A stretch of DNA of 64,000 bases, taken from assembly GCA_947034885.2 (NCBI GenBank), contig OX344754.2:8005001-8069000 (forward strand). The letters are read 5' to 3'. The position numbers and the translations under genes were made by a program. The notes below the pieces were generated by a model. That model was given only the letters and a program-made list of their open reading frames with translations, was not told where the DNA came from and searched no databases. The first letter of the stretch is position 1; each line of letters opens with the position of its first letter. This document shows, one piece after another, positions 38,330 through 63,801 of the stretch. The stretch is from Thuidium tamariscinum. Lineage: Eukaryota > Streptophyta > Bryopsida > Hypnales > Thuidiaceae.

Positions 38330-38645
38330 GTAAGTTCTTTCTCGACCCATCTATGGATAGGATAGTACAAAATATACCAGCATTGAGGACGCCCATGTTT
38401 TCAAGGATCACTTGCTCCCAGACGTCTTTCTAGTAGTGTACAAGATACAATTAAGTCATTTTAAAGTTCTATTAATAAACAGAGACTAGAAAATGACTTT
38501 ACCGTGACTAGGAGAAGTAACGCGCGAGTTGCAGTCCTGCGATCACCGTTCGGAAATATCTTAGATAGCCTGAACATGACTGCATGTAAAAATGGTGTGC
38601 ATCAATACTGCCACATGTTTCTCATTATTGTGTTGCACTTGTAAG

Positions 38646-43729: not shown

Positions 43730-44462
43730 GGGTGAATGCAAGAAACACTTGTACTATTTGTTGCGTTTTACTAAAGTACTCATGACTTTTTCTGGAGTAC
43801 TTTAAAATTAGAAAATTAATTTGAAAAAAATTTGAAAAATATGAAAAATGTATAGACCTCTAAGATAAAGGTTTTCACCGAAGGAAATTGATAGAAAATT
43901 TCTCTAAGTAGGAGAATTTAAAAAGCTCCAAACCTCAAGAAAATACATACCTTCATGTTTTAATTTGGGAAAAATAGTAAAAATAAGTAAATACAAAAAA
44001 TAAAAAGTGGCCATTTGCAACAATTCTATGGAGATGGTCATTCACCAAAAAAAACACCAAAATAATGTTTTATATGTTTCAAAATTCAAGCAGAAAGAAG
44101 CTCACTTTGTAGACTTCCACACCACATAAAAATAACTTTTTTCAAAATCCCTCACGCGGAGAGATGTAAATCTATTAGAAGACCATCTCATCCAAATTTC
44201 ATCTCAAAATCATTAAAAAAAGGTACTCCTTAGTACTAAAAACCTCCAAATTCTCATTTGTGACATTTAATCACTAGTACTATTTTAGTATCAAAATATT
44301 TTTGAAAATTATGAAAAAATTATGTAAGGTGTATAATAGACATAAGTACCTTCTCTAGAAATCTTGAGTCATTTTGAGCAAAAATGCAAAAGTTATGGCC
44401 AAAAAACAGATCAGCACTTAGCTTGTGACGGAAAATAGTACAAGTGTTTCTTGCATTCACCC
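43730..44462 (+). mobile_element. MITE family G, copy 5 (best preserved)
   Basis: GGGTGAATGCAAGAAACACT at the start, TGTTTCTTGCATTCACCC at the end, ~31-bp perfect inverted repeat up to GTACTATTT, flanked by TAAT on both sides. Non-coding. It lies in fossil I; MULE E was inserted directly at its right border, sharing the last C. Confidence 0.9.
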
Positions 44463-44470
44463 TAATATCA

Positions 44471-44640
44471 GGGTTGCTAGCGTGTGAGCCTGGGAGCGTG
44501 AGCCTGTGAGCAGGAACTTTTTTTTGCCAAAAAAGTGGATTTTTTTTCCAAAAAAGTGGATGAGGATCTGTAACCGTGGATTTACCTATGACCGTGGTTT
44601 TGAAAAATCTATACTGTTTTTGGATTGTTAGAGTTTTGGG
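44471..44640. repeat. Left terminal inverted repeat of MULE E
   Basis: GCTAGCGTGTGAGCC, GGGAGCGTGAGCCTGTGAGC, T-rich spacer, then ACCTATGACCGTGG. Mirrors 63380-63576 in order. Confidence 0.75.
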
Positions 44641-44814
44641 TTAGAAATTCTTATCTAAAAATTTGGGGTTCATCAAAATAGCTTGTATTTCCAAATTTTG
44701 GATGAAAAAAATTGAGTAGCCTTAGGATCATACGTTTGTTTCCATTCTTCACCATTTATTTCTTGGAAGTATACTGTATTTCGAGAAACATGAAATATTG
44801 TATTCACTCACCCA

Positions 44815-45385
44815 TTATTGAAGACGGAGACCTTATAAGAAGTGAATATTTATTTCATTCCCCATTTTTTTGGTCAGAGACATTGTAGGAAGTCAATATT
44901 GATTTCAGTCCCCATCTCGTTTGGTAGAGACATTCTAGAAGGTGAATATTTTTTCTTTCCCCATTTTTTTTGACGAAGATTTTCTAGGAGGTGAATGTCT
45001 ATTTCAATGCCCATTTTTTGGGATGGAAGCATGGAAGGAGGTAAATATATATTTCACTCCCAATTTTTTTGCCATGAAGACAATGTAGGAGGTTTATATT
45101 TATTTCACTCCCCATTTTTTTTTAAGATATTCCAAGAGGTGAATATTTCTTGGAGTTCACCTTTTTTGGATGTAGATGCAGGGTTTAAGGGTCTAGGGAT
45201 TTGACTCCCCATTTTTTTTATGAAGACAATGTACAAGGTGATTAGCTATTTCACTCCCCATTAATTGCATAGAGACTTTAAAGAAGGTTAATATTTATTT
45301 AAATCCCCATTTTGTTGGATGCTAACTTTGAAGGATATGAATATTATTTTTTTGATGCTAACTTTGAAGGATATGAAAATCACTC
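44815..45385 (+). repeat. Minisatellite in MULE E, ~50-bp unit, about ten copies
   Basis: Units contain TATTTCACTCCCCATTTTTT followed by a variable GAAGACATTGTAGGAGGTGA-like part. It lies just downstream of the stop of the methyltransferase-like gene. Strongly diverged between units. Confidence 0.8.
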
Positions 45386-45821
45386 AACATGTAGCCATAA
45401 AGCACACAAATCCAATCATAATGAAAATCCAAACATACTGATTTGACTTATGAGATACGTCAATCTCATGAGTCTAATATGCAGTAGACTCCGCTGTAGA
45501 GTCCCTATCACTAGAAGAGTCTGAAGTCTCTCTACCTTCCGATGCTGATCCATCTATGAATTCTAAGACATTTAGAGCGTACGAAGGTTTATGGGATTTG
45601 GGTTTGGAAGTGCCAAACTCCGCAAACGCTGATGCTAGCTGCTCTGCATAGACTGGAAGATCGAATGGCTTCTCTGGGCTCAAAATGAGTCTTCGTCTCT
45701 TCTTGACTTGGTCCTGCGCGATCACTCCCTCGCTGCTGTAAATTCAATGGAAACATTGTTAGATGTATGAAACATAACAAATATCAAGAATTTGAGAAAA
45801 TTGAATTTAGGAAAAACTTAC

Positions 45822-46854
45822 TTACTAGGTTTAGGGCGCCGAACAAATTTTCGAGGTACTATCACCATGGCCTCTTGGTCTTGTGATAACACAACTGTGG
45901 GCTCCTCCACACTTGGATTTGCGGTCACTGTAGAAGCAGACTTCTTCATTGGCAAGAGGACATGCTGGAAAATCCTCTTATCTTCCTCCAACGCTACAAT
46001 ATGCCTCCCGATAGCACGGCAAGCAGTAATGGATGCACCTGCCAAAAACCATAATTTACATCATCTACATAATGTTCTTGTATAAAAATAATTTCATTGT
46101 GCAAAAGTCGTAGAACAAGAATTCACCTGTAGAGGCAGTGCAGTCTACCACAATGTCCCCTTCATCCGTGGTGCCCTCAATGATGAATTGAATGAAGCGC
46201 GGATCCTTCTCTCGAGCTCCTCGCCATGCCATTCGATCCATCTCATTCACCAACATCGTGTCCTCTGGGGTGTAGTTCATGAGCAAGTCATCATGCCGAA
46301 GGCATACCTTTGCCTTCAGCATGGTCTGAGAGCGCCTGAATTCAAAGTTCGATTTCCCCTTGGCTCCTAGATGTTTGACAAAAAGGGTGATGCCAAACTT
46401 CAATGTCTGCAGGCATAATCAAAACTCACATGAGATTAGAAAACAATAAAAAGCAACAAATTCAAATATATAAAATTATTATAATGAAATGATAGAGTCT
46501 TACCGTTTGGTCGGGGTGAACTGCCGATGTAAGGTGCATCCGATGCATGCCCATCCAGTCCTTCTTCTTCTTGATGTTTGGATACTCCTGAAGAAGTCCT
46601 GCAATGGTTTCCAAGGAGTCCTGGCCCCAAGAATGAAACACTACAAGGCACCCATCGTCCTGCAAATGTTTGTGTGCAAAGTTGAAAGTCTGGAAAATTG
46701 TAAAGTAGTCCTTATCTACGTTCCAATAAGGAATGTGCTTCGACCCCCCTATCTCTGGCACTGGGAGGTTCTCTTGGCAGTCAAAGATCATGAGATCAAA
46801 TCCTGGCTGTCGATTGACGACCCCGTCATACACCCTAGCCTTACCTATGACCAT
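45822..46854 (-). CDS. Methyltransferase fold exons (9-11) of the MULE E gene
   Basis: Exon 9 (46854-46504) carries the position of motif IV: FDLMIFDCQENLPVPE followed by YFTIFQTFNFAHKHLQDDG and CLVVFHSW, as in D-P-P-Y...ve..RvLkpgG-x-hvh of beta-class amino-MTases, but with DCQEN instead of DPPY/DPPW. Exons 10-11 hold RRSQTMLKAKVCLRHDDLL (target-recognition-like), DPRFIQFIIEGTTDEGDIVV and motif I DCTASTGASITACRA, then GRHIVALEEDKRIFQ. Motif IV before motif I is the permuted order of N4/N6 DNA methylases (PF01555-like). Loss of the catalytic prolines suggests a non-catalytic or altered enzyme. Confidence 0.75.
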
Positions 46855-47601
46855 CTGCAAGAACATTTATTCAATACATGAGTATTTCCAAGAACAAGTT
46901 CAGAAAATAAGCGCTTTGTTAATCAAATAACAATCTCCATTGCTAAGAGAAAGAAGAATATTACCTTTTGTAGAAAATCCATGACCTCTGTATAAGGGTT
47001 TGGTCCCCGGACTCCTTCGTTGTCCACCACCTCTGAAATTGAGACATCAAGAAGCAATTCCTCTGAGGTGACATCATCGTCATCTCCAAGAGCAATGACT
47101 TGTGTACCTTGTGTTATAACCTCCTCCGAGAAGTCTGGAAGTACAGACTTCCTCTTCAACCCACCTTGTGATGCACCCTGCATCTGGGAGCCCTCATCCA
47201 CTGCAGACGACGTTGGAATGCCACTTCCTTCTTCCTTCTTCTTTTCCTTACCTTTCTCCTTCTCCTTGTCCTTCTCCTCCTTCTCCTTCTCCGCCAATTT
47301 GGCCAAACGCTCCGCCTCCTTCTTCTCCTTGTGCTCCAAAGCCAGTTGAATCCGTGCTGCCTTCCTCTTGTCCATGGTCTCCCTCTTTGCAATAGCCCTC
47401 TTCCTCTCATTCTCACTAAGTCCTGGAAACTCGTCAACATCCATGTTGATGGTGCCTTGTCCTTCCAAAGAAGCCCGCAACTCTACCTCTGACGGATGCG
47501 TGTAGGAGATGGGGCAGTCAATGTACCATCCACCACCACTGAGATGTAAGGTAGTGAAGGTCTTGAGCTGAGTCGGAGTATACATGCAGTCTTTGGAGTT
47601 G

Positions 47602-50600
47602 TGTGGGCGCTTCATTCCCACCCTTGGAATTAAGCGATCACAACCAGGCTCTTACTAATTCTACTACCTACGGGTGTCTAAGCATCAATCCATTGTGCCT
47701 TCCAAGCAATGGATCTTTTTTACTATCCTAACTAAGGTTTGTTTCGTTCTCTTGTCCTACTCTTAGTTGCAACTACTCTAGGTGTTTCGTTCTCTTGTCC
47801 TACTTTGCTTATGGCATTTCCTATCCCATCTCTACGTCTTTGTACTTGTCTAGTCTACCTCTACATGTTGGTATTCTTTTAGTCTATACTATATCTTCGT
47901 ATTTGCTTGGTTTTAATCTACTCTACGTATTTTAATTGAGTACCTCTACTCTACGTATTGGTATGGTTCTACTTCTACTTTACGTATTTTCATTGAGTAC
48001 CTCTACTCTACGTATTGGTATGGTTCTACCTCTACTTTACGTATTTTAATTGAGTACCTCTACTCTGCGTATTGGTATGGTTCTACTTCTACTCTACGTA
48101 TTTTAATTGGGTATCTCTACTCTACGTTTATGTATTTGCCTTGGTTCCTTCTACTCTACTTCTCCATATTTTATCCTATGTTTGGTATTTGTTCGGCTCA
48201 TTTCTATTCTAGTTGTGGTTATCTCCCTATTTGTATTTGCTAATTACCGGACCTTAACCCTACTCGGGATGTAGGCTTTTCCACTAACCAATCTCCTATT
48301 GCATTAATTAATCCAAATCAAAGGTAGGGTTAGATGCCCACCTCCGTTCCATGGATCCGGTCTTCTTCACTCCACGCTACGTCCATCATCGCCATGTCTT
48401 GGACCCGGCTCTTTTTATTATCCCCTTCCGGGTGCTTTTTACAATCAAGTCTTTTTTGCGATAGACTCTAGTTCCACTAATTTCTAGTCTATCCCCTTAA
48501 CTACCTAGGTTCTATATTTCCCCCTAAGCTATCTAATTTCTATATTTTCCCCTAAACTATCTACTTTCTAGATTTTTCCCTAAACTATCTACTTCCTATA
48601 TTTTCCCCTAAGCTATCTATTTTTTCTATATTTTCCCCAACTGCTGCGGCCCTTCCCCCCTCTGCTGCGGCCCTTCCCCCCCCCCTTATACCCGGCCCCC
48701 CCCCCCGATACCCGGCCCCCTCCAATACCCACGCGGGCGGCTCTGCGGGACGGCTCTGCGGGGCTCGGCTCTGCGGGGCTGGCTCCGGGGCTGGCCTGAA
48801 CTAGGGCTGGCTCCTAAATGGGGCTGGCTCTGGACTTGGGTTGGACCTTTGTTTTTGACTTCTCATACAATGCTAGTTGGTTGAGTGGGTACCAATTGTT
48901 CCTAGTTTAGGTGAGGACTTGCTTACTAAGTTGTTGGAAGCTAAATGTTGGGTTAGTTTCCAATGTGTTGGAAACTAAACGTTGTTGCTATTGTGGAGGG
49001 ATTTGCATTTGACAACCCGCTAAGACTTAGGGGGTTCAAAGCTTCGCCGTGAGGATGTATTTTTGACACTTGACTAAGACTTTCTAGTGGCCTAGAGACT
49101 TGGGAGGGCCATAGCTCCGCCGTCCCTATGGGACCTAATTAAATGCCGTGACTAAGAGAAGAGGGAGAAGAGAGTAGTTTTAGTTGCTTGACCCTTAGGG
49201 GGTCAAAGCTTCGCCGTCCCTATGGGACCTAATTAAATACCATGACTAAGAGAAGAGGGAGAAGAGAAGGTTTACAAAGTGCAAGCATACGTTCGAAGTC
49301 ACCTCTCAAGTTACCCCTCGGTTCCTCACAATACTCTCCCACAACAACCCTCAATGGTACACAACACAATGGATAATCAAGTTTGGATTGCGACAAGTTC
49401 CACCACTTGAGGGGGTCTCAAGTCCCCAAGTAAAGAAATCACACTTACCAAAGGGGTGTAAAAACCCCAAAAGACCATCAAAGGCTTCCTTGGCATCAAA
49501 GGCTTCCTTGGCATCAAAGGCTAAAGGAAATCCGGCATAACCCGGGCCCAATAGTCCTCCTCCCTTAAATGGGTAGGAGTTAGAGAGAGAGAGAGAATGA
49601 GAGGAGAATGCCGCCCCTTTTATACCCAAAAGGGAGCAACACCCCCCCCTTAATCTACTAAGAATAACTAGATGAGGAAAATTAGGAGGTCCGTACATGT
49701 TTATCCTTCCCAAATCTAATTATCCACCTAAAATCTACACAATTTGAATTGGGAAATTCAAATCTTACCTAACCTCACAAGAACTTGCAAAACCGTCAAA
49801 TTTACCTTCCCCAAAATCTACAAGTTCTCACATGGGAGAAGTTCCCATGTGTTCCCACCTACTTAATTTGAAATTACTTACACCAAAGCACATGAGCCAC
49901 CTCCACTAACTTTTTGAGGTGGTACTTGCTCCCACATGTGCGCAAAGTTCCCCACACGTTCCCTACGCGTTCCCCACGGCTAATAGGGCCCAAACTCCCC
50001 AAAAATGCATTGGGGGGCCTAAAACCCCCATTTCTTCTCCATGTGCTGTCCCCAAAAGGCTAACTTTTGGAGTTTAGCTCCAAATGGCAAACGGATTGCG
50101 CCATTGGCTCCGGAAGGCCATAATTAGTCTAAGAGGAACCCCATACCCCTTAAATTATGTCCAAATTCTCGAGGAATCTTAGCGTAAGCTAGGATCCAAG
50201 TTGGGGTAAATTCCCAACTTTTGGAGTTTAGCAATTTTGGACCCCAAACCCTCGCCAATCTTCCAAGTAGGTGGAAGGGGGTAGGAATAGATCCAAAATA
50301 GACTCCGTTCCGATGTCGTATGGCCCCGGTATGCCGGTCAACCGCCGCTTTCGTCATTTAATTTGTCAGTTGGGGAGGAATGTCGCCGATTCGGGATCTT
50401 CTAACTATCGTTTCGTCTTGAAACTTGGGGAAGCGCTCCGTTGGTGTGAGACCACCTCGCCCGATTTTTAGTGGGATTTTACCGCACTTTGCGATATTCT
50501 TTCGAATTCCCACCCAAAGTCCACCGCGGTTGACCGTCCGGGAAAATATCCAACCAATGTCGGAAAATTCCCAAACTTTAGAGGGGACCACCCATGGGGT

Positions 50601-51018
50601 CCCCCCACTCAGATGCAACTCTGCATCCCCACTACGTGCTCCTAGAATTAGGAAATTGCCGGTACTTGCATTTCAAGGTTAGTATTTTATTCGTATTCTC
50701 TTTGATGCTATGGGGAGTGGGAGATTCCTCCTAGATCCCCCTATGAGGACTTCCTAGCCTAGACAGGGCCTTCTTAGGCTCTTTACCCTAATTCTGCACA
50801 TCTCCATCAATTTGGCGTCTATTTAGCTAAGACTGGGCCTGTTTCGGATGTAAACTATCCTAAATCCCACCTAATGACCAAATGGCACATTGGTATGTGT
50901 AATGCCAATATAGGTTTAATGCCCTTTTGTGGGTGTTATGAGCCTAAATACGCCTTAGTTTATGCATAAATGCAAAAAAAGAACCCGTGAGTCCCCGGTG
51001 ACGAATCGGGGATTCACA
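47602..51018 (-). mobile_element. LTR-type retroelement fossil C
   Basis: 3417 bp, starts TGTGGGCGCTTCATTCCCAC and ends GAATCGGGGATTCACA, 5-bp duplication AGTTG (47597-47601, 51019-51023). Same family as fossil I. No coding region seen; minus-strand TATA (GGGTATAAAAGGGG, ~49615) suggests leftward transcription. Probably a solo LTR. It was inserted in exon 8 of the ParB-methyltransferase gene and is younger than MULE E. Looks whole end to end. Confidence 0.85.
47925..48130 (+). repeat. ~57-bp tandem repeat within fossil C
   Basis: Four units of TACTCTACGTATTTTAATTG followed by AGTACCTCTACTCTACGTAT and TGGTATGGTTCTAC. A second array of ~33-bp units with CTATCTA...TATTTTCCCC lies at 48505-48640, and a GC-rich stretch of GGCTCTGCGGGGCT units at 48720-48850. 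Confidence 0.8.
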
Positions 51019-51270
51019 AGTTGCGGTCCAGAAAATTCTTCAAGAAGGTAGGTAGGTCCTCAGTCTTGATTGCTTCTTTACCTTCGAGCTCATATTTGAA
51101 GTACCTGCAGTTCCAAGAGGACTCAATAAATACAAATGATAAAATTCAATCTCAACTACCAAATGATTTGACAACCTCTTTGAAAGGATACCAACTACAA
51201 AGTATTTTTTCTAAATTCTCAATTTGAGATGGAAAATTTTAACTTCAAAGTCTGTAAGAGACAAGAACTA

Positions 51271-51348
51271 GGGGGGTCCTTCAGCAACGTCCTTGAGGTA
51301 GCTCGGATCCGAGCTAAGTCTTAGAGGTAGGTGAAGGACCCCCCTAGT
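51271..51348. repeat. CTCGGATCCGAG palindrome, copy 1
   Basis: TAGGGGGGTCCTTCA at the left and its complement at the right, core TAGCTCGGATCCGAGCTA; the ~15-bp spacers in the two arms do not pair. In the intron between exons 7 and 8. Confidence 0.85.
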
Positions 51349-51507
51349 TTTTGATATCCTACATGATTTTTTGATTTCTACAAAAAAAAATTTTGGTGAT
51401 CACATGCAAGAATGGACTTTTCATTCCTCATAATTTACTATAAAATCGCAGTTTTACATGAAAAAAAATTATACTTTGAGACTTCAAGTTCTGCAATGGG
51501 CATGAAC

Positions 51508-51586
51508 TAGGGGGGTCCTTGAGCATCTTCCTCAACATAGCTCGGATCCGAGCTATGTCGAGGAGGATGCTCAAGGACCCCCCTAC
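51508..51586. repeat. CTCGGATCCGAG palindrome, copy 2
   Basis: Same ends and core as copy 1. Here the arms pair almost fully (GGGGGGTCCTTGAGCATC against its complement). Same intron, 160 bp away. Confidence 0.88.
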
Positions 51587-52689
51587 TTTTTCATTTCCTA
51601 CTTCAATTCAAGATTTTTTTGAAATTTTTTTTTTTTGCCCCAATGCAAAGATTGACTTATAGGACATTCAATAACAATAATGTCAAACATGAGCTATGAT
51701 TTTTAGAGACTCACCGGAAAAGAACCCTTCTTACTGCCTGCTTTGATCCCTCAAAGGTGTTGAAGTTATCGCTTTTCTTGAAGTAGTTAGCTCCACGAAG
51801 ATGAGCTAGAAATCCTTGATCCCAGATCTTAGTTCTCCAACCTTCCAAATAGTCAAGGAGAGTCTCTGGTTTCTGTGGAACGTTCATATCTATAGGTATG
51901 TTGTCATGCCTCACAACACCCTCAAAAATATCCACCACTGCATCCTCAATCTGGATCAAAGAAAAAAGAATTACAATTTACATGATTCAAAGTACTATGC
52001 CTCATGAATAGAAAATTCAAATTATTATAAATATCAAATGCAAAAATTGTTAAACTTGAAAACAAACTTCAAGTAAGTTACTTACCCCAGCATACCAAAC
52101 ACAACGGTTTAGAAATGGTCCAAGTAGTAGCTCAGACACTGGCCTAGGTGGGAAACGCCTTGCATCACGTGAGGGAATAGAAGAGTTCCACCACTGCAAG
52201 AATTTGATCTTGTGAGCTGCCGTTGTATTGCACGTTACAACCATTTGGAGTTTCTCCAGAGTCATCTCGGGAACCTCATTTGTAGTCCAGTGTTTCTCAA
52301 CCTGAAAAAAATGATGTGAGATTCACACTTCTAATTTTCAAGGTATAAACCATTTGCTTAATTTTTTGAAGTATGCAAAGTAGTTACCTCTTTCAAAAAG
52401 TCGGGCTCATTAGCCGGATTAGCAACGGCGGCCAATTTTGACATCTTCACATTGAGTTTCCCAGTCCTCTCATGTGCTGCAGATCTCATAGCGTGAGCAA
52501 GTCCCTCCGCAGTTTTCTTTTCCTCTGGCGTGATCTCGTTGTACTTTCGTACTGCAGCATCTGCGACTTGAGAAATCTCTTGCTGCACATTTCCAAGGCC
52601 AATCAATGTGAACAAAAGCTTTAAGAACAAAACTGAATATACTAAAATACATTGTATTGAAAAGAAGAATTTTCACAATAATTTCATAC

Positions 52690-53685
52690 CCAAAAAACGA
52701 AGGATGTGAAGACCTCCAGTGGCATAGAATATCACGTCTTCCTCAATTTCTGTGCAGAATAGCGTTTCAGCTCAGATGGCCTCAACATTTCGTTGAAGCG
52801 CTCTATGGGTAAAAGCCCATACTTCTGAACCCTATAAAGGGTATGAACCAAATTGGTCTTCACGTGTGAGCCCTCTGTAGACCTGAAATTCAACAAGGCT
52901 TTATAAATATATGCATTTCATATTATATAAGCAAAGATGAAATAGTTTCAAAATTTTCTAAAAACATAAAACAAAACTTCAAAGACCAAATTCAAGTAAA
53001 CAACTTACTTGTTAATGTCATGCATGACATGCATAGCTACCTCGATTTTGCCCTTTGTGTCCAACACAATTGAGTCCACTGCATAGTGCCAAGTTATGTC
53101 CTTGGAGTGCAGCCGGGAAATATGATTCATCCATGACAGCAGGCGGTGATTCCCGTCACACACAAAGAACTTCAAGTTCTTCAAGAAACTCAATTCGGGA
53201 ACAGACTGGATGTGGGCTTCAAAGATCTCATTCTTCTCTCTCCATAAAGGCCCCCATTTCTCTATCTCCTCCTCTGTGAATTTGGAGCTTTCTCCGGCTT
53301 CATTTGTGGTTGTGACATAGAAAACTGCTGCCCCGTCGAGGTAGCCCTTTGCAAATTCGTGTTCAAGCAATTCAAGATCGCAAGACAAAGTAGGTCTTAC
53401 CATGGGCATCGCTACCATCCAGCACAAGGGAATTTGAAGCCGAAACAGATGATCAGGCTTCATCCTCAAGCCTGCAATGGTATTCACAGAGTCTACCTTG
53501 TGATATTGGCGGAGGTCATCCTCCAACAAGTCCTTGTCATCTTCATCCATGAATTCCTCCACCACGTCTTCACTTGTGACTCCTCTCCTCGCTTCACCAC
53601 CAATGGGGGGTTGACTTGTAACATCCATGTTTTGGGTTTCCAAGATAGTTTCTTCTTGGGAAAGAACTACTGGAGACACTTCCAT
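52690..53685 (-). CDS. ParB-like domain exons (3-4) of the MULE E gene
   Basis: Exon 3 (53685-53009) begins MEVSPVVLSQEETILE, passes an acidic stretch (EEFMDEDDKDLLEDDL), then HKVDSVNTIAGLRMKPDHLF, KFTEEEIEKWGPLWREKNEI and KFFVCDGNHRLLSWMNHIS. DGNHR with a preceding hydrophobic strand is the signature of ParB/sulfiredoxin-fold domains (DG-x-HR), which bind DNA or nucleotides in ParB and in phage methylase fusions. Exon 4 adds KTNLVHTLYRVQKYGLLPIE and, in a shifted frame, EIEEDVIFYATGGLHILRFL. Confidence 0.65.
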
Positions 53686-53876
53686 CTGCAATAATAAAAC
53701 ACCCATAAATGTATGACCACAAGCCTACCTTTATAACACAAAAATGCAAAGAAAAATTCAAGTTGAATTGAGAGATAAACTTTCATAAGATATAGTACAT
53801 AAGTAAAACATTAATTTTGAAATATGTAAGGCTTTATAGTGCCATTTGAATATAAAACTTTTTGGAAGAACAGAAC

Positions 53877-54353
53877 CTAGTCAATCTCTACATCTTCCTC
53901 AGAATCTGAGCTGAGGTGAATGAAGACTGGAACCTGTGGACCTATAGGACCACTGCAAGCACAAGTACATGTCTCTTGCAGTGGTGGACCATCAACAGTG
54001 ATGGAGACCTGCGACTCAGAGCTATACTCAGTCTCTGAGCTCTCTGAAGACAAACACCTAAATCCCTTTCTTCTAGCAATCTCAGCAAGCCTCAAGGCAT
54101 GCCTTCGCCTTCCCGCATTTGGGTCACTGACACGACTAAGCACAGAGCTCTGGAAAGCATCTACCGCACACTCAGCGGCATCCATGACATCTCCAAAACT
54201 TACCAAGTCTGGTCCTCCTGCCTCCCCCTTATCACTAGAGACCTCCTTACTTGGGCGCCTTGATGTAGGAGTCTGTGAGGATCCTGCTTCATGAACAATA
54301 GGGCCTCTTGGGGGCTCTACTACAGGTGAAGATGAGCCTGCACCATCACCTCT
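53877..54353 (-). CDS. Acidic exon with alternative end
   Basis: Opens after CAG at 54354 with RGDGAGSSSPVVEPPRGP. It can splice at 54204 (GGPDL then GTAAGT) into the ParB exon, phase 0 on both sides. If the donor is ignored the frame stays open: VSFGDVMDAAECAVDAFQSS, RRRHALRLAEIARRKGF, CTCACSGPIGPQVPVFIHLS and an acidic end SDSEEDVEID before a stop. Two products (a ~140-residue acidic protein or the long fusion) are possible. Confidence 0.55.
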   Translation of the reverse strand, partial: RGDGAGSSSPVVEPPRGPIVHEAGSSQTPTSRRPSKEVSSDKGEAGGPDLVSFGDVMDAAECAVDAFQSSVLSRVSDPNAGRRRHALRLAEIARRKGFRCLSSESSETEYSSESQVSITVDGPPLQETCTCACSGPIGPQVPVFIHLSSDSEEDVEID

Positions 54354-54657
54354 CTGTTTGAAAAAAAAATACAGAACAATACCTCATATTAGCTTCCACT
54401 ACCAGAAGAGAGAAGTATGCAAAGAATTTTGATTGAAATTATTTTTTAAAAAGAAACAAAGGTTTTGCAATGGCAAATAATGAATTGCGAAATTGAACCC
54501 TCCTAAAATATAAACTTTGAGGTCTTATCAAACAAAAAACTCTAGAGGATATAAGAATTTTATAAATTTTACCAATTTTTTGATTTTCAAAGAAAATTAT
54601 CATAAAACTACCTAAAATTGTCTTTTTCTTTAAAAAAATCACTCCACGAAGACAAAT

Positions 54658-54779
54658 TTTTTTGCTTGGTCAGCAAAGTGCGGGGGTTCGGCCACGTCAT
54701 GGTTGACTAGGCTCGGATCCGAGCCTAGTCAGCCGTGACGTGGCCGAACCCCCGCACTTTGCTGACCAAGCAAAAAAAT
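54658..54779. repeat. CTCGGATCCGAG palindrome, copy 3 (long)
   Basis: The longest and most perfect: arms of ~60 bp from TTTTTTGCTTGGTCAGCAAA through GTGCGGGGGTTCGGCCACGT to the core GGCTCGGATCCGAGCC. In intron 1. An extra half-copy (CACTTTCTGGCC arms) follows at 54780-54830. Confidence 0.9.
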
Positions 54780-54968
54780 TCCAGTTGGGCCAGAAAGGGA
54801 CGTGGCCGGACCCCGTCACTTTCTGGCCCGGCTGAGAAAGAGGCGCCGCAGCCTGTCGTCAACTTCGGAAACAAATTTCGGAAACAAAAACTGATTTGCA
54901 CAATAGCGGAATTCGGAAGCAAGAATTTAACACAAAGATTCTGGAGCAAGTACAACCTAAATCTTGAA

Positions 54969-55455
54969 CTGAGGGGGTTCGGGTGAATTCGGTAGGACCT
55001 AGCTCGGATCCGAGGCAGGTCAGACTGCATTTGTCTGGACCCCCTCGCATTTGAGCATTCGGGAGAATTTGAGAAGCACGGTTGGATCTGGAAAGAATCT
55101 CGAGCAGGTAAGAATCTTGAGCAGGCATCGCGTGGAAAGAATCTCGAGCAGGCTTTCGGACTGATCTCGAAGAAACTCCGAACTACTTCGAAACACGGGG
55201 GTCCTGCCAAGGTTGAGCAGTTCTAGCTCGGATCCGAGCTACAACAAGCCAGACTGCTGAAGACCCCCTCAATGAATGGAAATTTTGATTTCAAGGAAGC
55301 AAAAGTCCAGAATCGCGTGGACAGTTCTTAAGCAGGCACTCACACACGAGAAAGAATAACTCGGAACGCTTGCAAACCAGGGGATCCTCATGTACTTGAT
55401 CTGTACTACCTCGGATCCGAGCTAAAGGAAGGCAGACTGACGAAGACCCCCTCAC
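54969..55455. repeat. CTCGGATCCGAG palindromes, copies 4-6
   Basis: Three copies in intron 1 at 54969-55046, 55198-55271 and 55379-55455. Each has a GGGG-rich left end, core CTCGGATCCGAG and a right end of GACCCCCTC type. Left arms differ among copies while right arms share GCAGACTG-like spacers, so they are related to each other more closely than to copies 1-3. Confidence 0.82.
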
Positions 55456-56118
55456 TTCTTGAAAACTCTGATTTCGTATGCAAGACTTTTAGATTCGGTT
55501 GACAGCTTGATCTCAAGAAATCAGGACTTCACAGTACCCAAAACCCTCGTTCAACATGCCTTGTTGAGGGCATCCCAAGTTAGGAATCTAAATCTGTAAA
55601 CATTAACAAGGTCACAACGCAGAGCCTGAGACTGAGAAACAAAAAACGAAAAGAAAAGAAGTGTGTACCTGCTCTGTCATTTGAATCTTGTTTCGTGGAG
55701 TTGGCGGATCTCCAGCGCCATCCCTTGCGCGACTCCGTGTAGATCTCCTCATGATGGTCTCCTGGTGGTCCAACAATACTGAAGATAAGAACCTCAAACG
55801 GCAGGTAGGAGAAAGAGAGACGGACATTGTGAGATCGAGAAGTGAAGGCACCGAGGGAAACAGCCGCGCCGCCATAACTTGCGGCTTTCTCCGCATTCCA
55901 AGCTCAGCCAGTCATGAAAGTGGATTCAGTGGAGAGACACAAGCAAGTCCAGATTCATCTGCATGCCGAAGTGCAGGGGTGCAGGCGCGCGGAGAAGTGG
56001 AATCAGCGCCGAAAAAAGAAAAGGGAATTGTCGATCAGAATTCGGGATCAGACTCCAATGCGATCACCTGCCGTTCCGGTGTGGTCCGCCACGTCGAGTC
56101 CTGGCTTGCGTGGCTGAA

Positions 56119-56198
56119 GGCGCCACGTGTCAGTCTCTGATTCGGAGATTTTGGCGTGGACAAGTCCAGCTCAGATCCCGGTCGACTGACACGTGGCG
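56119..56198. repeat. Hairpin with GCGCCACGTGTCAGTC arms
   Basis: GCGCCACGTGTCAGTC at 56120 pairs with GACTGACACGTGGCGC at 56183. Contains G-box-like CACGTG in both arms. It lies upstream of the first exon of the minus-strand gene, so it could be a promoter element or a small foldback repeat. Confidence 0.6.
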
Positions 56199-56269
56199 CA
56201 ATGTTATTCGTGAAAAGATATTTTCTCTTGCTTCTTTTTTTAATTAATTTAACGGCCTTGAACACATGG

Positions 56270-57194
56270 ACTGAACTTTGAGGTATAAAGAATGGAAAGG
56301 AGAATCTTATTCTTATATGAGATTATTATTTATTTCCAATGTAATGCTGGAAAGAAAATATTATTGTTGTATTAGGATTCTAACTTTAGAGATTTTCTTA
56401 TTTAGGAGATGATATGTGGAAAGACAAGGAAGAAAGTAAAGAGCCAGCAAAGCATAGAATGTTCTTCAATTTAGAGAGGCCTATTTTAAAAGAGCATAGA
56501 TTTAGTACGGAAAAACAATGTCACTCAAATAGTTTTGAAAAGGATCATATAATTTTAATTTGTAGTTTTGATGCTTAAAGTGTTTAGGGTTTCTAAGTTT
56601 AAGGTTGTTTCTTAATTTGAAAGGAAAGCCCATTGATGTGTTGAATACCAAAGAATTAAACTATGCAAAAGAATTGGAAAACAAGAGTGTGGTGTCAAGT
56701 ACTTCATAGCATTCTCAAAACTTTGGAATGATTTCAAAAGTTTCCATCTATAGTTTCAAGCAACTATGGACATAGATTTAGTATTTGCCTTCAAATATGA
56801 TAGAGCGGTAATATCAAATGTTTCTTCTCTCACATTGACTGTTCTCATTTTGTCCTTCTTGAAAATGGAATTACGAACGAAGAGTGGGATTACTATTAAC
56901 AGTATCATGTTTCTCCTATATTGGAAGCTCATCTATCAATGACACTCAATCATGTTACTTTTAAACTTGGACTATACCTAGCCTACCAAATGATGGTCAT
57001 CTTTCCCATTGCGTAGACAGGGGATGGCTATGTGGATCACGATCCTTTTCATCGTATTGAATTCTATTCACTAGAAGTCTAGAACTGAAATAAAAACTTA
57101 GAGTACTTCAACATTACAGAATCTGTGTAGCCGTTTCATCAGTAGTGCAAAACTAAGGGAGGAGACAAGAAGTGGAGTTTCTAAAGAGTCTTAC
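56270..57194. other. AT-rich intergenic stretch in MULE E
   Basis: No open frame or repeat recognised. It lies between the start of the methyltransferase gene and the upstream exon at 57195. Confidence 0.5.
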
Positions 57195-57501
57195 ATTTCC
57201 GGAGTCTAGCGCCCTCGCTTCTTGCTGAATACTTGTGTTGTCCACAACCGTCTCCTCCACTTCCTCTGTGTTGTCAATCGGAGCATCACCCTCCCCGGCA
57301 GTACTCCCTGTTTCGAAACGCAAAGTTCGACGAAGATCTCTGGCTCTGGGTTGGGTAGTTTTCGGTGCTAACCTACTTCCTTTCTTCATTCTAGCACTCT
57401 TCAAAGCCTTAGAAGATGAGAAATAGAGAGACCTACGGCGCTTCCGTGTTCTCCCTTGTTGCAAACTAACAAGAGGAAGTGTCCTATCTTCTACGAGCAT
57501 G
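57195..57501 (-). CDS. Upstream exon, possible alternative first exon
   Basis: ATG at 57501 opens MLVEDRTLPLVSLQQGRTRK, then a basic stretch RKRRRSLYFSSSKALKSARM and acidic NTEEVEETVVDN, ending DSGN at donor GTAAGA. Phase 0 at the donor matches the acceptor at 54354, so it may replace exon 1 of the methyltransferase gene. It resembles a nuclear-localisation leader. Alternatively it belongs to a third small gene. Confidence 0.45.
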
Positions 57502-57545
57502 AAGTGAGAAGCAAAAATATGGCTAGCTATCAATCTCTCGCGCAA

Positions 57546-58259
57546 CTTGTAAAGAAAAGTAGAAGAAGAACTGTGAAGACGCTTGGTGGTGCCTCCCTCT
57601 TATGGCATAGTAGAGAATTCCAGTGAATTCGTCACATTAGGGTGACTTCAATGGAGGAGCGTGGGAGTATGCCGCCACATGTGTGAAGGGACCTGATTGT
57701 AGGGGCGCCGCCCAAATCCAATTGAAAGATGCAGCGGTGGCCGTCTTTTTATTGTCAAGGTCTTTAAATCGCCGCATCCTTGCAATTCAAAGTTCTTCCG
57801 CGTGAGCTTCTATGAGCTCTGTCCTGTCAGATATTGAAGTAAAATTCCTGCAGTATTTTGCCGGCGTTATGAAATCGATCACATTTGAAAAATACAAATC
57901 AATAATCGGATTCCAGACGCCATTTTAGGCGTACTACTACGCAATTAATCAGATGTGTCTGGCCTTCTCTAATGAATACTTTATCGTACAAAAGTGCCTA
58001 TGCTAGGCAGGAACGTCTTCCTATTAGGCTAATTGATTTTATTATGTATTCTACTTTGAGCTGTAGTGAGATCATGGTCATTATTGAAATTTTTAAAAAA
58101 TTCGGCGGACATTCATACAGGAATAGTGAATATATATCAGAGAAGGGGAGAACATGGTAAAGCTCTAATGAAGTGGTAGTTGTATTCCCTCTTACCTGAT
58201 TAGCTATGTAGATTTCATTGTCTTCTCTTTCTTCTTCAATCCCTTTGCAAGGTTCCACG
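57546..58259. promoter_or_regulatory. Divergent promoter region of MULE E genes
   Basis: Lies between the minus-strand exon and the plus-strand transposase start. No repeat or open frame of note. A shared bidirectional promoter is inferred from the arrangement only. Confidence 0.35.
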
Positions 58260-61200
58260 ATGGCTTCCATTCGAGTAGAGGGGTATGCGGTTCCTATTGT
58301 GTTTCCGGTAGTAGATGGTGGATGTGCTAGAGTAGCGAGCCACCTTCTCCACGTTCAATTTAAGTTCCTAGAATGCTCTGTATATGTTGAGGAAGAAAAA
58401 ATATCAGAATCAGGTGAAGTTTATCAGTCTGTTCCTATTGACATGTCTATAGAAGATGGATCACGTTGCTGGTACCTTCCTCCAAGAAACTACAGAGCAT
58501 ATGGGCTTCCATTGTCTGCACTGAGTGCATCTACTGAAATCCTCAATCGCCAATCAGACAATTCCACTGTAGATATGCCAAAACCACCACATGCCGTTGC
58601 ACTTAGCCCACCTGTACATGCTTTACCAATGAATGAGATGCGTACACTACTTCGTAAGGTGAAAGTAGAGAGATTAGATACTATCATAGAGTTGTCTTCG
58701 AATTCCGAAGGAGAGCCTGTACATTGCAAGTCCAAAAAGCCTCAGGCTTTTGTTCCCCTCGAATCGTGCAAGATGGAAAGAGTAGAATCATTTTCCGATG
58801 CTCCATCTAGAAGTCCCTCAACTTCGTCACTTCCACTTCCTCTTGTACACCCGTATGTAGGAGGGAGAGAAAGCATTATGGAATGTTTGAAGAGACTCGC
58901 TACAATGCGCCGGTCTCGCAACGAACTGTCGACAATGAATCTGGATACTCTGAAGCACCTTCAAGTTCCATACCTTCCAGCAGTATTTGATGGAGATGTC
59001 ATCTTTGAACTGCCCCCGTGTCGCTCATCTTCTTCCTCGACAGGTGCCCAAAACTTGGAGGGAATGGACAAGCGGTACGACGGACATCCGTGGTGCAAGC
59101 TCATGACAACTAACATCCACAACTCTGACAACTTGAAATTTCGTAAGTCGTATTGTGCTGGCCATCTCAGTTGTGAAAATCCAAATTGTGATTATTTGAA
59201 GAGAGCTTCTAAGAAAAATGAAACAGAGTGGATTGGCTATACTGTGTTTCCTTTTAGTCCGGGGGAGTGTCCACCAGCAGATTCAACTCTAGTATGCAAA
59301 GTCTGCAAAACTTCACCATCCTGTCTTAGCGAATGCAAGGCTAGGATTTACTATGCATATGCTGATAACCCAGAACTTAGTAGGGCTGCAATTCACTTTG
59401 GAAAGCACGAGCACCCTGTTACTAAGGGGATGTATAGGGATTCCGCGGAAAAAATTTGCGGACTCATAGCAGAGCAAGTGGAAAAGACACCCATGGCCAC
59501 GAACTCTGCTATTGCTCTTTCTGCTAGTAAAGAGTTCTTAACGAGCTACTTGTTTCACAATGGAGAGGGCGAGAAAAAGATGTTGAGGGAGGAAGAAATG
59601 GAGGAGGTCATGGATCGCTTTCAATACCTAAGTAGTCCAAGTATTCGCAATGTTATTTCTTCTTTCCGTTCTAACAACCGAGGAGGAATGATCGACAACA
59701 TTATGACTATGAAGAGAGAGTTCAAGTTCGAATTCATACACGACAGTGTCTTCCCTGGGCAAGGGAAGGAGAAGGTATACATCTTCAAGATGCTTACTGA
59801 AGGCCCAGGGAGTGGGGTGGACCTCGTCAAGCGCATGCAAGAAGGAGGTGATCTTCAGAATGCTTGGTTGATGTTTGACCACGTGAAGCGCGTGAAGGAC
59901 TGGACCACAATGGCTTGCCACGTGTATGATACTCAGTACAAAAAGGTGATGACCATTGCAATATGCGATATGCAATCCGAAGACACCGAGATTCAAGTAC
60001 AGTTCTGGAGAAGCTTGAATATGGTAATGCATTCACATGGGGTGACTAATCCAAACTTCAAGGGATTTATGGCGGATAATGCCATGGCCAATTGGAATGC
60101 GGTACGCATTGTGTACGGAAGCGGTTCTGCCAATGTTGCCATGGAGAATCGAGAAAGAACATGTTTGCTGCATTGGAGTACCTCTCTCCATAAGCATACA
60201 CAGAAGTACATCAAAGAAGCATTCCATCAACAACACATGTCATTGTGCAAGCAGTACAAGGACTCCAAGAATATGGACCAAGCAGAGATACGGTACCTAG
60301 CCATCCGGTCATGGTGGCTATCATCTGGAGCTGCCAATGAAGATGCACTTCATCACTTGGACCATTGGCTAGCTTTTTGGCATTTTCGTTACCGGCAATG
60401 GGGAGGCTTCATGGACATGGTATGTTTAATCAATAATTGCAATTTGTATATGAATTTGAAGTTTGAATTTACATTCTCTAATACAAAGTTCACTTCAATG
60501 TAAAATCTGATCTTTGTTGAAGTGGAAGTGTAATTTTCTTTTCGAGTTTTTTTTAAAATTTTTTTTTTAATTTTGTACTTCAAGATATGGAAAATAAGGG
60601 GGTCCGGGTAATACTCAATCTACATGCCTCGGATCCGACGGTTAACATCCGAGTATTAGCATGACCCCCTCAATTTTATTCCTAACCTCAAAAAATGAAC
60701 ATCAGTAGGTATGCAATTCAAATATATTTGTCTATGTAGACTAGATTTTTTTTGAATTAGTCTGATTTTTAGGAATTCAATACGGATATATCTTTCTACA
60801 ATGAGAAGTCCTTGGAAGTCATAATTACTATTGAAATGTGTATTCAATAGTGACCCTAATATTACAATCTAGAAGTTTGTTGTCTTTGGACTATAAATTT
60901 CTAACTATTTTGGTGAATTTTTGTTCATTTGTAGAAGCTGAATCTTGAAGAGATGTTGGACTTACCATCGTGCAATCTATCTGAAACGGTGCATAACAAG
61001 TGGCTACAAATGTCTGGAAAGCGAGGGAACAACTTGTTTGATGCAACATGTGATGACAGTATCCGTGCTTGGATGCAAATGACAAACTATCGTGCCTATT
61101 TGAGAGGTCATGCATCAAGATCAGGGCCGTCTAAGGGTGAGTTGAAGCTCAGAGCTGCTAGAAGGAGCGGGGATCCCAAAAAAATTGCAGATGCTTTGAA

Positions 61201-62323
61201 TGAATTGCCTGGTTCAGAAGGTGTTGGAACTAGAGTACCGCACTTGGAGGGAGAAGAAATATTTGGGAGTATGAAGAAGAAGTTGGATGTGCCCATTGGC
61301 GATGCAGGAGATTCACATAGACCGGACAAAGTGAACTTTTCTCAACCCCGTGTTCGAACAAGGTCCACAACAACTTCTTCACCTTCTTTGCAAAATAAGG
61401 GTAAAGAATTAGAAGATTCTACTGTAGGACATGTTACGATTGCATTTGAAAGTGACTGCGACATATCTAAGTGGCATATAGCACGGATTAGCCACAAATC
61501 CAACGCAAGATGTCAAGCTCAACAACAGAGATCCAGCATAAAGTGCACGTCAAAAATTGCGAGAGGAAAGAAGGGAACTCCAGCTCCTACCTATCGTGGA
61601 CGAAAAGAGGAATATGGCAGTAAGCGAGAGGTTGTGGCAGATTTCTGGTTTTTTTGGGACGACATTGAGCGATGTGTGAAAGGTACAAAGCGGAAGTAGG
61701 TAATTGATTGGCCACAGGTCCCGGAGGTATGGCCTGTTTTGAGTGGAACCAATCTCAACCGTGAAGAGACTTTGCTCTTGCAGCATGCGGGATTCCACCT
61801 CCAAGTATGTCCAACATTATCACCACGGCGATTGTTCAGCATGTCAAAGATTTTCACCACTGTTTTCTATGACGAACCTTCACCAAAGAACCCGGACACG
61901 TATCCTACAGTCAGGAACAATCGAACCATTCGAAGGACGGTAAATGCACCAACTACAGAGCAACGGAATAAATGGGAAAGTACAGGGAATGTCAGAGGAC
62001 AAATTTTGGAGGTCACATTACTCCCTTTTCCTGGACTTGGTGCAATTGTGGTACTTGAGACAGGGTCAGATTCTAACAGGAATGCATATCGAGTTACACT
62101 AGGAATGTTCCCAACGTGCACATGTCCAGATTTTGTGAATATGGCTGTTTCAGCTATTGGTGGTCGTCAACAGTACGTGAATTGCAAGCACTTGTACTAT
62201 TTGTATAGGTACTTTTGCAAGATGGATGTCCACAAAGACAAATTCATTCATGCACCAAGTTATAGCTTCAATGAGTTGAAGCTACTTCTACTCCGAGCGG
62301 GAATTATTGCAATTCCAGAATAG
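58260..62323 (+). pseudogene. MULE transposase with SWIM finger (one in-frame stop)
   Basis: Catalyses cut-and-paste transposition of Mutator-like elements. Exon 1 58260-60419 (720 codons, start MASIRVEGYAV), intron 60420-60934 (GTATGT...TTGTAG), exon 2 60935-62323; phases fit, about 1180 residues. Order: variable serine-rich leader; zinc-finger-like part (FRKSYCAGHLSCENPNCDYL, CKVCKTSPSCLSECKARIYY, HFGKHEHP); a helical part (REEEMEEVMDRFQYLSSPS); DDE core with YDTQYKKVMTIAICDMQSED, FKGFMADNAMANWNAV and TCLLHWS; basic linker; SWIM finger FPTCTCPDFV with YVNCKHLYYLY (C-x-C...C-x-H). A single TAG at 61697-61699 interrupts an otherwise open frame between linker and SWIM; CAG (Gln) to TAG would explain it. 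The alternative start at 58218 is TTG, so ATG at 58260 is preferred. Confidence 0.85.
60598..60672. repeat. CTCGGATCCGAG-type palindrome, copy 7
   Basis: GGGGGTCCGGGTAATACTC at the left, core CCTCGGATCCGACGG, right end GAGTATTAGCATGACCCCCT. It lies in the single intron of the transposase gene, so both E genes carry the family. Confidence 0.8.
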
Positions 62324-62512
62324 GCATGGCTAGATATGTTTATGTACTTCAATTGCATTTATAAGTATATATTATGATTGCCATTTGGAGTGAATTCTCT
62401 CGTATTACAAAAGTATTCAAAACTATTAATGCATTCACAAAGTGTCACAGAATGTTTTATCAAAAAAATTTGTTGAATTAAATTGAGATGCATGAATACA
62501 ACATTTTTTCTT

Positions 62513-63244
62513 GGGTCATTGCAAGAAACACCTGTACTATTTTGTGTCACACGTTGCATGCTGATCAGTTTTTTGGCCATAACTTTTGTGTTTTAGCTCC
62601 AAATGACTCAAGATTTATAGGGAAGGTACTCATAACTATTATACACCTTCCTTGATTTTTTCATAATTTTCAAAAATATTTTACTATCCAAAAATAGCCC
62701 CCGATTGGATGTCACACTTGGCAGTTTAGGGGTTTTTAGTACTATGGAGTACCTTTTTTTAATGATTTTGAGATGAAATTTGGATGATATGGTCTTCTAG
62801 TATATATCTAGCTTTCCAGGGAAGGATTTTAAAAAAAAGTTAATTTTGTGAGGTGTGGAGGTCTACAAAGAGAGCTCCCTTCTGCTTGTATTTTGAAACA
62901 TATAAAATATTATTTTGGTGAGTTTTTTTGTGAATGACCATCTCCATAAAGTTGTTGCAAATGGTCACTTTTTATTTTTTTTAAATACTTATTTTTACTA
63001 TTTTTCCCTAATTTTTGAACCAAAGTACCTATTTTCTTAAGATTTGGCACTTTTCAATTTCTCCTACGTAGAGAATTTTTCTATCAATTTCCTTCGGTGA
63101 AAACCTTCATTTTAGAGGTATATTCATTATTATTATTTTTTAAATTTTTTTAAAATTAGTTTTCTAATTTTATAGTACTCCTAAAAATTTCATGAGTACT
63201 GTTGCAAAACGCAACAAATAGGACAGGTGTTTCTTGCAATGACC
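62513..63244 (-). mobile_element. MITE family G, copy 6, in MULE E
   Basis: Starts GGGTCATTGCAAGAAACACC and ends GTGTTTCTTGCAATGACC; flanked by TTCTT (4-5 bp duplication). Same orientation as copy 1. It lies between the transposase stop and the right end of E. Confidence 0.88.
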
Positions 63245-63379
63245 TTCTTATAAATCCCTTGCTAGTTTTTTAGATAATGGATAAACTACATGCTGAAAAT
63301 TTTCCCCTAAACCTTGAAAGGCCTCATCCCTTAGCGAATAAAAGTTAAACTCAAAAATATAACATTTCACCTAAACCAC

Positions 63380-63576
63380 GGTTATAGGTGACACGGTCAT
63401 AGGTCATATTTTCACTATTTTTCGTAAAAAAACCAACTTTTCAACCCAAAAAATTGGAAAAAAAAAATTTCAAAAAATTTTCAATTTTTTTGGTTTCCAG
63501 GCTCACAGGCTCACAGGCTCCACGTTCGCAGCTCACAGGCTCACCGCTCCAAGCTCGCACGCTAGTGTCGTTGACC
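63380..63576. repeat. Right terminal inverted repeat of MULE E
   Basis: Contains AACCACGG, ACACGGTCATAGGTCAT, an A/T-rich stretch, then GGCTCACAGGCTCACAGGCT and GCACGCTAGTGTCGTTGACC. Complement of the left end in order and motif content. Confidence 0.75.
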
Positions 63577-63801
63577 CTAATATCATATCTAATCATCTAA
63601 TAAGATGTAGAAATTGGCTCTAAGGAGTCTTTTAAGGTATTCCGTAAAAATTGTAACCAATTCCTCGTAATTATAGGGAATTGTATCAATCCTACTTTGA
63701 ACACTCTTTTTAGTTGATTTTTTAACCATAATAACCCTAAATATGAACAATAAGCGAAAAAAGAAAACCTCGAGGCCTAAGTGACAATGACAGGCCTCAC
63801 A

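Follow-up and report, generated by a model that had tools for sequence, protein, structure and literature searches.

A MULE-like transposon of the moss Thuidium tamariscinum with a ParB/methylase-like gene and 72-bp dyad sites in its predicted introns

The window analysed here is a stretch of 64,000 nucleotides (C6:8005001-8069000) in a 363-Mb assembly of 19 contigs of Thuidium tamariscinum. It contains a transposon at 44469-63574, which is 19,106 bp long, or about 15 kb once two younger insertions are subtracted, and which we call W when it is compared with other copies. W carries a gene whose product combines a ParB-like with a methylase-like part, a transposase gene divergent to it, a small third gene (UP) between the two, and seven 72-bp dyad sites. 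Exon models were built on splice-like borders and on conservation between copies, without transcripts, and introns are predicted ones throughout. The features, with their positions in the window, are as follows.

44460..44468, no strand: left target-site duplication CCCTAATAT, a perfect 9 bp
44469..44605 (inner limit approximate), plus strand: left terminal inverted repeat, beginning CAGGGTTGCTAGCG; local alignment, 40 scored places genome-wide
45474..53685, minus strand: ParB/methylase-like gene, 10 predicted exons, interrupted in W
about 53685-53009, 52882-52690, 52582-52388, 52301-52086 and 51950-51715, minus strand: its exons 1-5
53009..53685, minus strand: exon 1, predicted ParB/sulfiredoxin-fold domain with DGNHR (AlphaFold2, Foldseek, VIA-align)
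51104-51019, minus strand: exon 6, continuous with 47601-46965 in other copies and split by a nested insertion in W
about 46854-46504, 46406-46127, 46038-45822 and 45736-45474, minus strand: later exons, the last two limits approximate
46504..46854, minus strand: exon 8, candidate methylase motif IV region, FDCQENLPVP in place of DPPY
45822..46406, minus strand: exons 9-10, putative S-adenosylmethionine (SAM)-binding motif I region, GDIVVDCTASTGASITACRAIGRHIVALEED; PF01555 and DpnA matches
47602..51018, no strand: nested TG...CA insertion of long terminal repeat type, 3417 bp, with a 5-bp duplication CAACT; absent from copies A-F
51272..51343, no strand: 72-bp dyad site, intron 5 of the ParB/methylase-like gene
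51511..51582, no strand: 72-bp dyad site, intron 5 of the ParB/methylase-like gene
53877..55752, minus strand: third gene, UP, predicted exons 55752-55669 and 54353-53877, four sites in the predicted intron
54682..54753, no strand: 72-bp dyad site within a 126-bp palindrome, predicted UP intron
54973..55044, no strand: 72-bp dyad site, predicted UP intron
55197..55268, no strand: 72-bp dyad site, predicted UP intron
55380..55451, no strand: 72-bp dyad site, predicted UP intron
58260..62323, plus strand: transposase gene, exons 58260-60419 and 60935-62323, SWIM-like segment near the end
60598..60669, no strand: 72-bp dyad site, transposase intron, core CTCGGATCCGAC
62513..63244, no strand: nested insertion with inverted ends, 732 bp, resembling a miniature inverted-repeat transposable element (MITE); absent from copies B, C and D
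63367..63574 (inner limit approximate), minus strand: right terminal inverted repeat; local alignment
63575..63583, no strand: right target-site duplication CCCTAATAT, a perfect 9 bp

The transposon starts with CAGGGTTG and ends with CGTTGA. Its inverted ends align locally with a score of 129, compared with a maximum of 73 in 100 shuffles; the outermost 35 bp are 83% alike and a diverged similarity extends further inward, which bears out the diverged ends reported in a preliminary description of this DNA. The 9-bp duplication given there exists too, but its frame was two bases off: CTAATATCA is the correct repeat, CCCTAATAT, read from two bases further on, which is possible since CA comes after each copy. 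The flank of the left end (44300-44462) is a partial, inverted copy (86%) of the MITE-like insertion nested at 62513-63244, and the transposon therefore sits at or beside such an insertion.

Six further copies (A-F), with the same ends as W, were delimited on contigs C1 and C2 and share with it blocks of more than 2 kb at 84-97% DNA identity. The 9-bp duplications are perfect in all seven delimited copies (W and A-F) and have different letters in each. As copies A-F share the ends and each has its own perfect duplication, the element boundaries are real and the unit moved as a whole. Three more distant copies were also read, namely G (C1:15.9 Mb), M (C11:6.83 Mb) and N (C1:22.8 Mb), and the genes of the element are conserved exon by exon in A-G, M and N across the parts read. 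Target-site duplications of Mutator-like elements (MULEs) are described as spanning 8-11 bp (PMC6446971); the 9-bp duplications fall within this range and long terminal inverted repeats are also present. By these two features and by a weak SWIM finger the element appears to sit with the MULEs, and we term it only MULE-like because the Pfam DDE models gave no match.

The transposase gene consists of two large plus-strand exons, the second of which holds a nonsense codon in W. The SWIM-like zinc finger was found with an E value of 0.016 in W and of 0.17 in one of two relatives scanned, with nothing in the other, all under the Pfam cut-off. For the first exon Pfam gave no DDE model: W matched no family at E up to 10, and one of the four members scanned showed a single chance-level family (QueF, 0.17). 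The AlphaFold model of the transposase (predicted local distance difference test score, pLDDT, 28.6) was not used further. The preliminary description had called this gene a SWIM-type MULE transposase; what was recovered is a pair of large exons with a weak SWIM-like segment.

UP, a small protein ending in VFIHLSSDSEEDVEID, is encoded by a separate gene, which is present between the two large genes in nine of the ten copies read (W, A-G, M and N); only W, A, C and D yielded its first exon. An open frame beginning MKKGSRLAPK lies at 57153-57599 on the minus strand, between UP and the transposase, and is conserved in copies A-G; its ratio of nonsynonymous to synonymous substitution rates (dN/dS) is 0.29-0.47 in all computed pairs except A-W (1.2). 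This frame may belong to a fourth gene, as its first exon, or offer UP an alternative start. A hydrophobic-acidic stretch occurs in all three proteins of the element, as VFIHLSSDSEEDVEID in UP (53880-53930; kept in G, slightly altered in M), TIIELSSNSEGE in the transposase (58680-58715) and TQVIALGDDDDV in the ParB/methylase-like protein (about 47070-47110), and presumably resembles what is called a SUMO-interacting motif.

The ParB/methylase-like gene had been described as a divergent gene of about 12 exons with DGNHR and methylase-like segments; all of this is recovered except the exon number, which is 10 in our model. In W the gene is broken, by a nonsense codon and by the nested 3417-bp insertion in an exon. 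An early model assumed a frame change in exon 2; this was rejected, as relatives show a single open exon and W has the nonsense codon. The AlphaFold2 model of exon 1 has a mean pLDDT of 74.4, with 93 of 226 residues at 90 or above and residues 1-53 below 50, and its best matches in Foldseek and VIA-align are ParB/Noc types. The ParB-like segment noted earlier thus has structural similarity on the predicted model, and a ParB fold of the exon 1 domain is supported by this modelling. Pfam assigned 0 families to exon 1 of W; among the 67 members of its alignment DUF1015 appeared weakly in six and DndB in two, and matches to KMP-11 and tryptophan hydroxylase were judged to be chance. In the same alignment N179 is invariant, D177, G178 and H180 are nearly so, and the R is less conserved. 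Relatives of exon 1 in public protein sets number 486 at E up to 1, and the 120 listed all have E values of 4.6e-62 or lower.

The second half of the protein was compared with beta-class N6/N4 methylases. PF01555 (N6_N4_Mtase) matched W over positions 166-217 with an E value of 1.3e-4 and 22.4-23 bits, below the curated cut-off of 26.7, and the top PDB match was DpnA (E 7.7e-4 for the whole sequence). Motif I follows motif IV from exon 8 to exon 10, which is the beta order, and DpnA aligned in two stretches in the same order, the first of them weak. At motif IV all rows of a 16-row alignment read DCQEN or a close variant (DCPEN, DCSKN, DFPEN, DSPEN), with DCPEN in subfamily N, and the catalytic (D/N/S)PP(Y/F/W) was not found there. 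The permuted amino-methyltransferase fold of the preliminary description is thus retained in part, as a SAM-binding half that weakly matches PF01555 and DpnA in the beta order, but DPPY is replaced and the score lies under the cut-off. Methylase activity is doubtful because of the DC[QP]EN-like motif, and in view of both the score and the catalytic motif we do not file the protein as an N6/N4 methylase. For most exons of the element Pfam and PHROGs gave no convincing family.

All seven dyad sites of W share, with small deviations, the tripartite 72-bp frame GGGGGTCC-N22-CTCGGATCCGAG-N22-GGACCCCC. The central 12-mer CTCGGATCCGAG has six exact occurrences in the element and a seventh with a single mismatch; the window holds five further matches, each with two mismatches. 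Genome-wide it was found at 292 places, compared with 4 for a reversed control. A palindrome scan of the window returned only two palindromes above threshold, and both are dyad sites (51511 and 54682). The idea that the element's protein marks its own ends was not upheld, since the palindromic sites are internal, in predicted introns, and the ends have none.

The frame is kept in other copies: 54 of the 62 core matches found in W and A-G conform to it. In the spacing profile, which dropped the eight of the 62 whose outer blocks fell short of 4 G and 4 C, cores with at most one mismatch showed a 24-nt spacing without exception, from GGGGGT to the core in 46/46 and from the core to ACCCCC in 42/42. 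Sites were present in all ten copies read; in G and M their places are like those in W, namely the interval from exon 5 to exon 6, the stretch ahead of the second UP exon and the gap that separates the transposase exons. The arms, 22 nt long, vary from site to site. When 60 sites (those of subfamily N left out) were reduced to 19 representatives at less than 70% arm identity, pairing of the arms within a site was 0.656, against a shuffled mean of 0.395 and maximum of 0.548, and fell to 0.20-0.30 if the arms were slid by 1-3 nucleotides; eight of the 19 keep the frame but pair at 0.36-0.50. A symmetric protein assembly on DNA would demand just this, a fixed spacing with free arms. The arm pairing may be a relic of the origin of the sites by inverted duplication, or reflect a second function.

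Subfamily N uses the same frame with the core GTCGGATCCGAC or one close to it and outer blocks like GGGTACC/GGTACCC, and its sites are located ahead of exon 1 and in the gap separating the two transposase exons. GTCGGATCCGAC was found at 655 places genome-wide, compared with 1 for its reversed control. The comparison of cores with copies covers C1, up to 34.7 Mb in the case of GTCGGATCCGAC: ParB-exon copies at 57-61% identity have GTCGGATCCGAC (5, 2, 4 and 5 places within 10 kb) and no CTCGGATCCGAG, and the two listed copies at 97-98% have no GTCGGATCCGAC nearby. On this contig, site type and protein change together between subfamilies.

The 12-mer CTCGGATCCGAG also occurs in a different repeat, at 4565/4639 in L026, 4218/4292 in L027, 4879/4953 in L028 and 4750 in L031. 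The contexts there are like GGCTCCTCGGATCCGAGGAGCC, without GGGGGTCC blocks, and the pairs in L026-L028 are 74 bp apart; in L026 this 12-mer lies between pieces of a diverged transposase gene.

Genome-wide, 62 of 1073 candidate places were scored for the transposase exon, 150 of 638 for the ParB-like exon, 150 of 597 for the methylase-like exon and 40 of 204 for the left end. A divergent ParB-like exon lies within 40 kb in 53 of the 62 scored transposase places, in 51 of these at 4.4-9.4 kb, and only 1-3 transposase places had one when positions were shifted by 0.2-1 Mb (five shifts). Conversely, 27 of the 34 first-listed ParB-exon rows have a scored transposase. The left ends were compared with the upper methylase-exon rows and two lower ones, with ParB-exon rows 1-34 and two lower ones, and with 32 of the 62 transposase rows; 38 of the 40 are accompanied by a methylase-like exon, 33 by a ParB-like exon, 29 by a transposase and 26 by all three. 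Part of the misses may be unscored places, because the lists hold best rows only.

The counts for transposase places and left ends led us to reject the idea that the two genes are neighbours by chance. The preliminary description had asked for the genes to recur together between the same ends with 9-bp duplications, and this is what was found (53/62, 38/40 and 7/7); ends lacking the methylase-like exon, one of the contrary outcomes that it named, make up only two of the 40 scored. The association of the genes is structural, the ParB/methylase-like gene is a regular, co-mobilised part of the element, and the genome holds dozens of closely related copies. The capture of a bacterial-type methylase, suggested earlier, is not supported as a recent event, because methylase-like exons down to 46% identity occur in the same genome and exon 1 has many public relatives.

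The ParB/methylase-like gene gave dN/dS values of 0.08-0.11 in pairs of copies A-F with G, whereas the transposase gave 0.10-0.19 and the second UP exon 0.17-0.23; these values are rough, as dS in those pairs is about 0.8 to more than 2, and W was not paired with G. In G and N no matched exon of the ParB/methylase-like gene has a stop. These substitution patterns indicate purifying selection on the gene relative to a diverged copy.

Contig C11 (17.5 Mb, about 5% of the assembly) holds 51 of the 150 scored ParB-like exons, many of them open, at 71-73% identity; it is possibly a sex-linked chromosome or one otherwise rich in transposable elements. Six copies of a methylase-exon subfamily at 47% identity, all open and scoring 112.7 or 114.2 bits, lie within 0.7 Mb at C6:24969598-25633791, perhaps through a recent local amplification. 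An open frame of 21516 amino acids reported around the methylase-like exon at C4:185628-185978 may reflect masked sequence or consecutive N rather than a protein. Elsewhere in the window, 35486-39371 is a CACTA-type element with Transposase_21 (1.1e-64), DUF4218 and DUF4216.

Based on these observations, we suggest that the element carries a self-recognition, anti-silencing module, in which the ParB/methylase-like protein, alone or with UP, reads the dyad sites. We regard this as the most likely reading, with a chance close to even, because the anatomy resembles that of VANDAL elements (three genes, intronic motifs and a motif type that changes between subfamilies). The protein would be a sequence-specific reader of the 72-bp sites, loading on them in dimeric or higher-order form, in the way ParB does on palindromic parS. 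Once loaded, it would spread or bridge along the element, and the spreading would keep related copies open to transcription and transposition. For the methylase-like half, a role as a binding domain, SAM-dependent or non-catalytic, would be more likely than that of a canonical DNA methylase. It is by analogy with VANC of the VANDAL elements that we pass from sites and protein to anti-silencing.

Several observations weigh against this proposal. Nine of the 62 transposase places have no listed ParB exon, and the 62 scored places offer no transposase for seven of the 34 first-listed ParB-exon rows. Subfamily N gave no match to UP and no site between exons 5 and 6, and a 70% ParB-exon copy on C1 has one core of each kind. 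CpG decay is alike in site cores (2/28), introns (3/28) and exons (23/299), so there is no footprint of local protection. In every one of copies A-F the parts read contain a nonsense codon or a frame break, or more than one, and between close copies the dN/dS of the ParB/methylase-like gene is 0.23-0.42 in five pairs, which is weaker although still below 1. DGNHR stands where ParB has GERR, which leaves CTP switching only a possibility here; the ParB-domain fold group also includes ATP-binding enzymes. Nothing in the sequences points to one of the three proteins as the one that binds the sites, and the intron location and the dyad arms would also fit an RNA hairpin.

A different role would follow if the protein were an active DNA methylase and marked the element, for example at the GATC of the GGATCC core, with the sites as its targets and marked DNA treated differently by transposase or host. 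PF01555 is matched by all four members of the methylase-domain alignment (best 1.9e-5), DpnA, the best PDB match, is a GATC-type adenine methylase, and GATC stands in the core of nearly all listed sites in the subfamilies read. We nevertheless consider this unlikely, given the DC[QP]EN or close variant at the DPPY position, the score of W under the curated cut-off, an independent E of 0.27 for the best single DpnA stretch, and a 72-bp tripartite site that far exceeds what a methylase needs.

Slightly less probable still, in our estimate, is that sites and ParB-like protein serve transposition itself, by pairing or bridging copies or sister DNA, or as internal sites (enhancers) for a transposase complex. 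ParB-family proteins do bridge DNA, every copy read has sites, and the left ends, of which 38 of 40 keep a methylase-like exon, revealed no large class of ends alone. Against such a role, the sites are internal: none in W lies less than 2.9 kb from an end, and the inverted ends contain none.

The sites could also act as RNA, as intronic hairpins that make or block small RNAs or control splicing of the three genes. The seven sites of W all lie in predicted introns, complementarity of the arms within a site extends further than the shared motif, and the only two above-threshold palindromes of the window scan are sites; the eight of 19 representatives that pair at 0.36-0.50 yet keep core, outer blocks and exact spacing fit protein-DNA contacts better than a stem, and we hold the RNA explanation to be improbable. 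Passive cargo of the Pack-MULE style, with the palindromes as a separate fold-back element favouring the transposon, is disfavoured as very improbable: MULEs often carry captured host fragments (PMC6446971) and the different repeat also has the 12-bp core, but the low dN/dS against G, the presence of the gene in most scored places and in diverged copies, and the same 72-bp frame across subfamilies speak against it.

A more specific form of the self-recognition module, which we put forward as possible but doubtful, would combine the ParB clamp with palindromic loading sites as a miniature parS, turned from chromosome segregation into a self-coat of the element. The protein would load at the intron dyads, spread together with its SAM-binding domain and shield or re-mark the element against silencing, and protein and site would have co-diverged into subfamilies. 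If this is true, clamp loading and spreading could explain how few sites protect a whole element. The model is directly testable, as the protein, the sites and subfamily-specific site variants are in hand.

The preliminary description knew of no described MULE with such cargo. Our literature search, which lacked most subscription papers, found none either, and a MULE with a ParB or DNA-methylase gene is an arrangement for which we found no prior description. The word methyltransferase is absent from the main text of a MULE survey (PMC6446971), as are methyltransferase, moss and ParB from that of a 2026 review of plant gene capture (PMC13317346), and no word starting with plant, transpos or moss occurs in the main text of a survey of ParB folds from 2025 (PMC12704722).

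Several known systems share parts of this organization. MULEs with extra open reading frames (mudrB, MutB, vanB/vanC, SET, PMD, FAR1) likewise have an antisense or additional gene, but no ParB or DNA-methylase frame was found among those read from the survey (PMC6446971). Several lineages of fungal DNA transposons carry a TET/JBP dioxygenase gene that likely counters methylation-based silencing; the enzyme is a different one, and the abstract of that report mentions no recurrent internal dyad sites (PMC12730594). The survey of ParB folds describes ParB as a CTP-dependent clamp that loads at parS and then spreads, and it finds fusions of such folds with N6_N4 methylase domains to be more frequent in phages than in bacteria (PMC12704722). 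Such fusions of a ParB-CTPase fold with an N6_N4 methylase in phages and prophages resemble our protein in having both folds in one chain tied to mobile DNA, whereas here the gene is eukaryotic, intron-rich and part of a DNA transposon, with DGNHR and a DC[QP]EN-like motif IV (PMC12704722). If our reading is correct, a ParB fold joined to a methylase-like fold enters eukaryotic transposon biology.

The self-recognition, anti-silencing module has its model in the VANDAL elements of Arabidopsis (VANA/VANB/VANC), and the present element may work in a similar manner. Both are MULE-type elements with extra genes and with short motifs recurring in their own introns; in both the motif type changes between subfamilies and the motif number varies between copies, and the recurrent motifs in the predicted introns of the moss element are subfamily-specific as well. 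We know of no ParB or methylase-like domain in VANC. The VANC21 motif consists of 9-mer tandem repeats and the sites described here are 72-bp tripartite dyads; anti-silencing by VANC has been demonstrated, whereas here it is proposed. VANC21 binds short motifs that lie in introns of its own gene and of VANB21 and ahead of VANA21, and non-CG hypomethylation extends over the whole of an element (PMC5735166, PMC10398659). The escape of transposons from silencing is a long-standing question, and if the moss protein binds its sites and spreads from them in a comparable way, the element would provide, beside VANC, a second and independently built example of a transposon that reads its own DNA.

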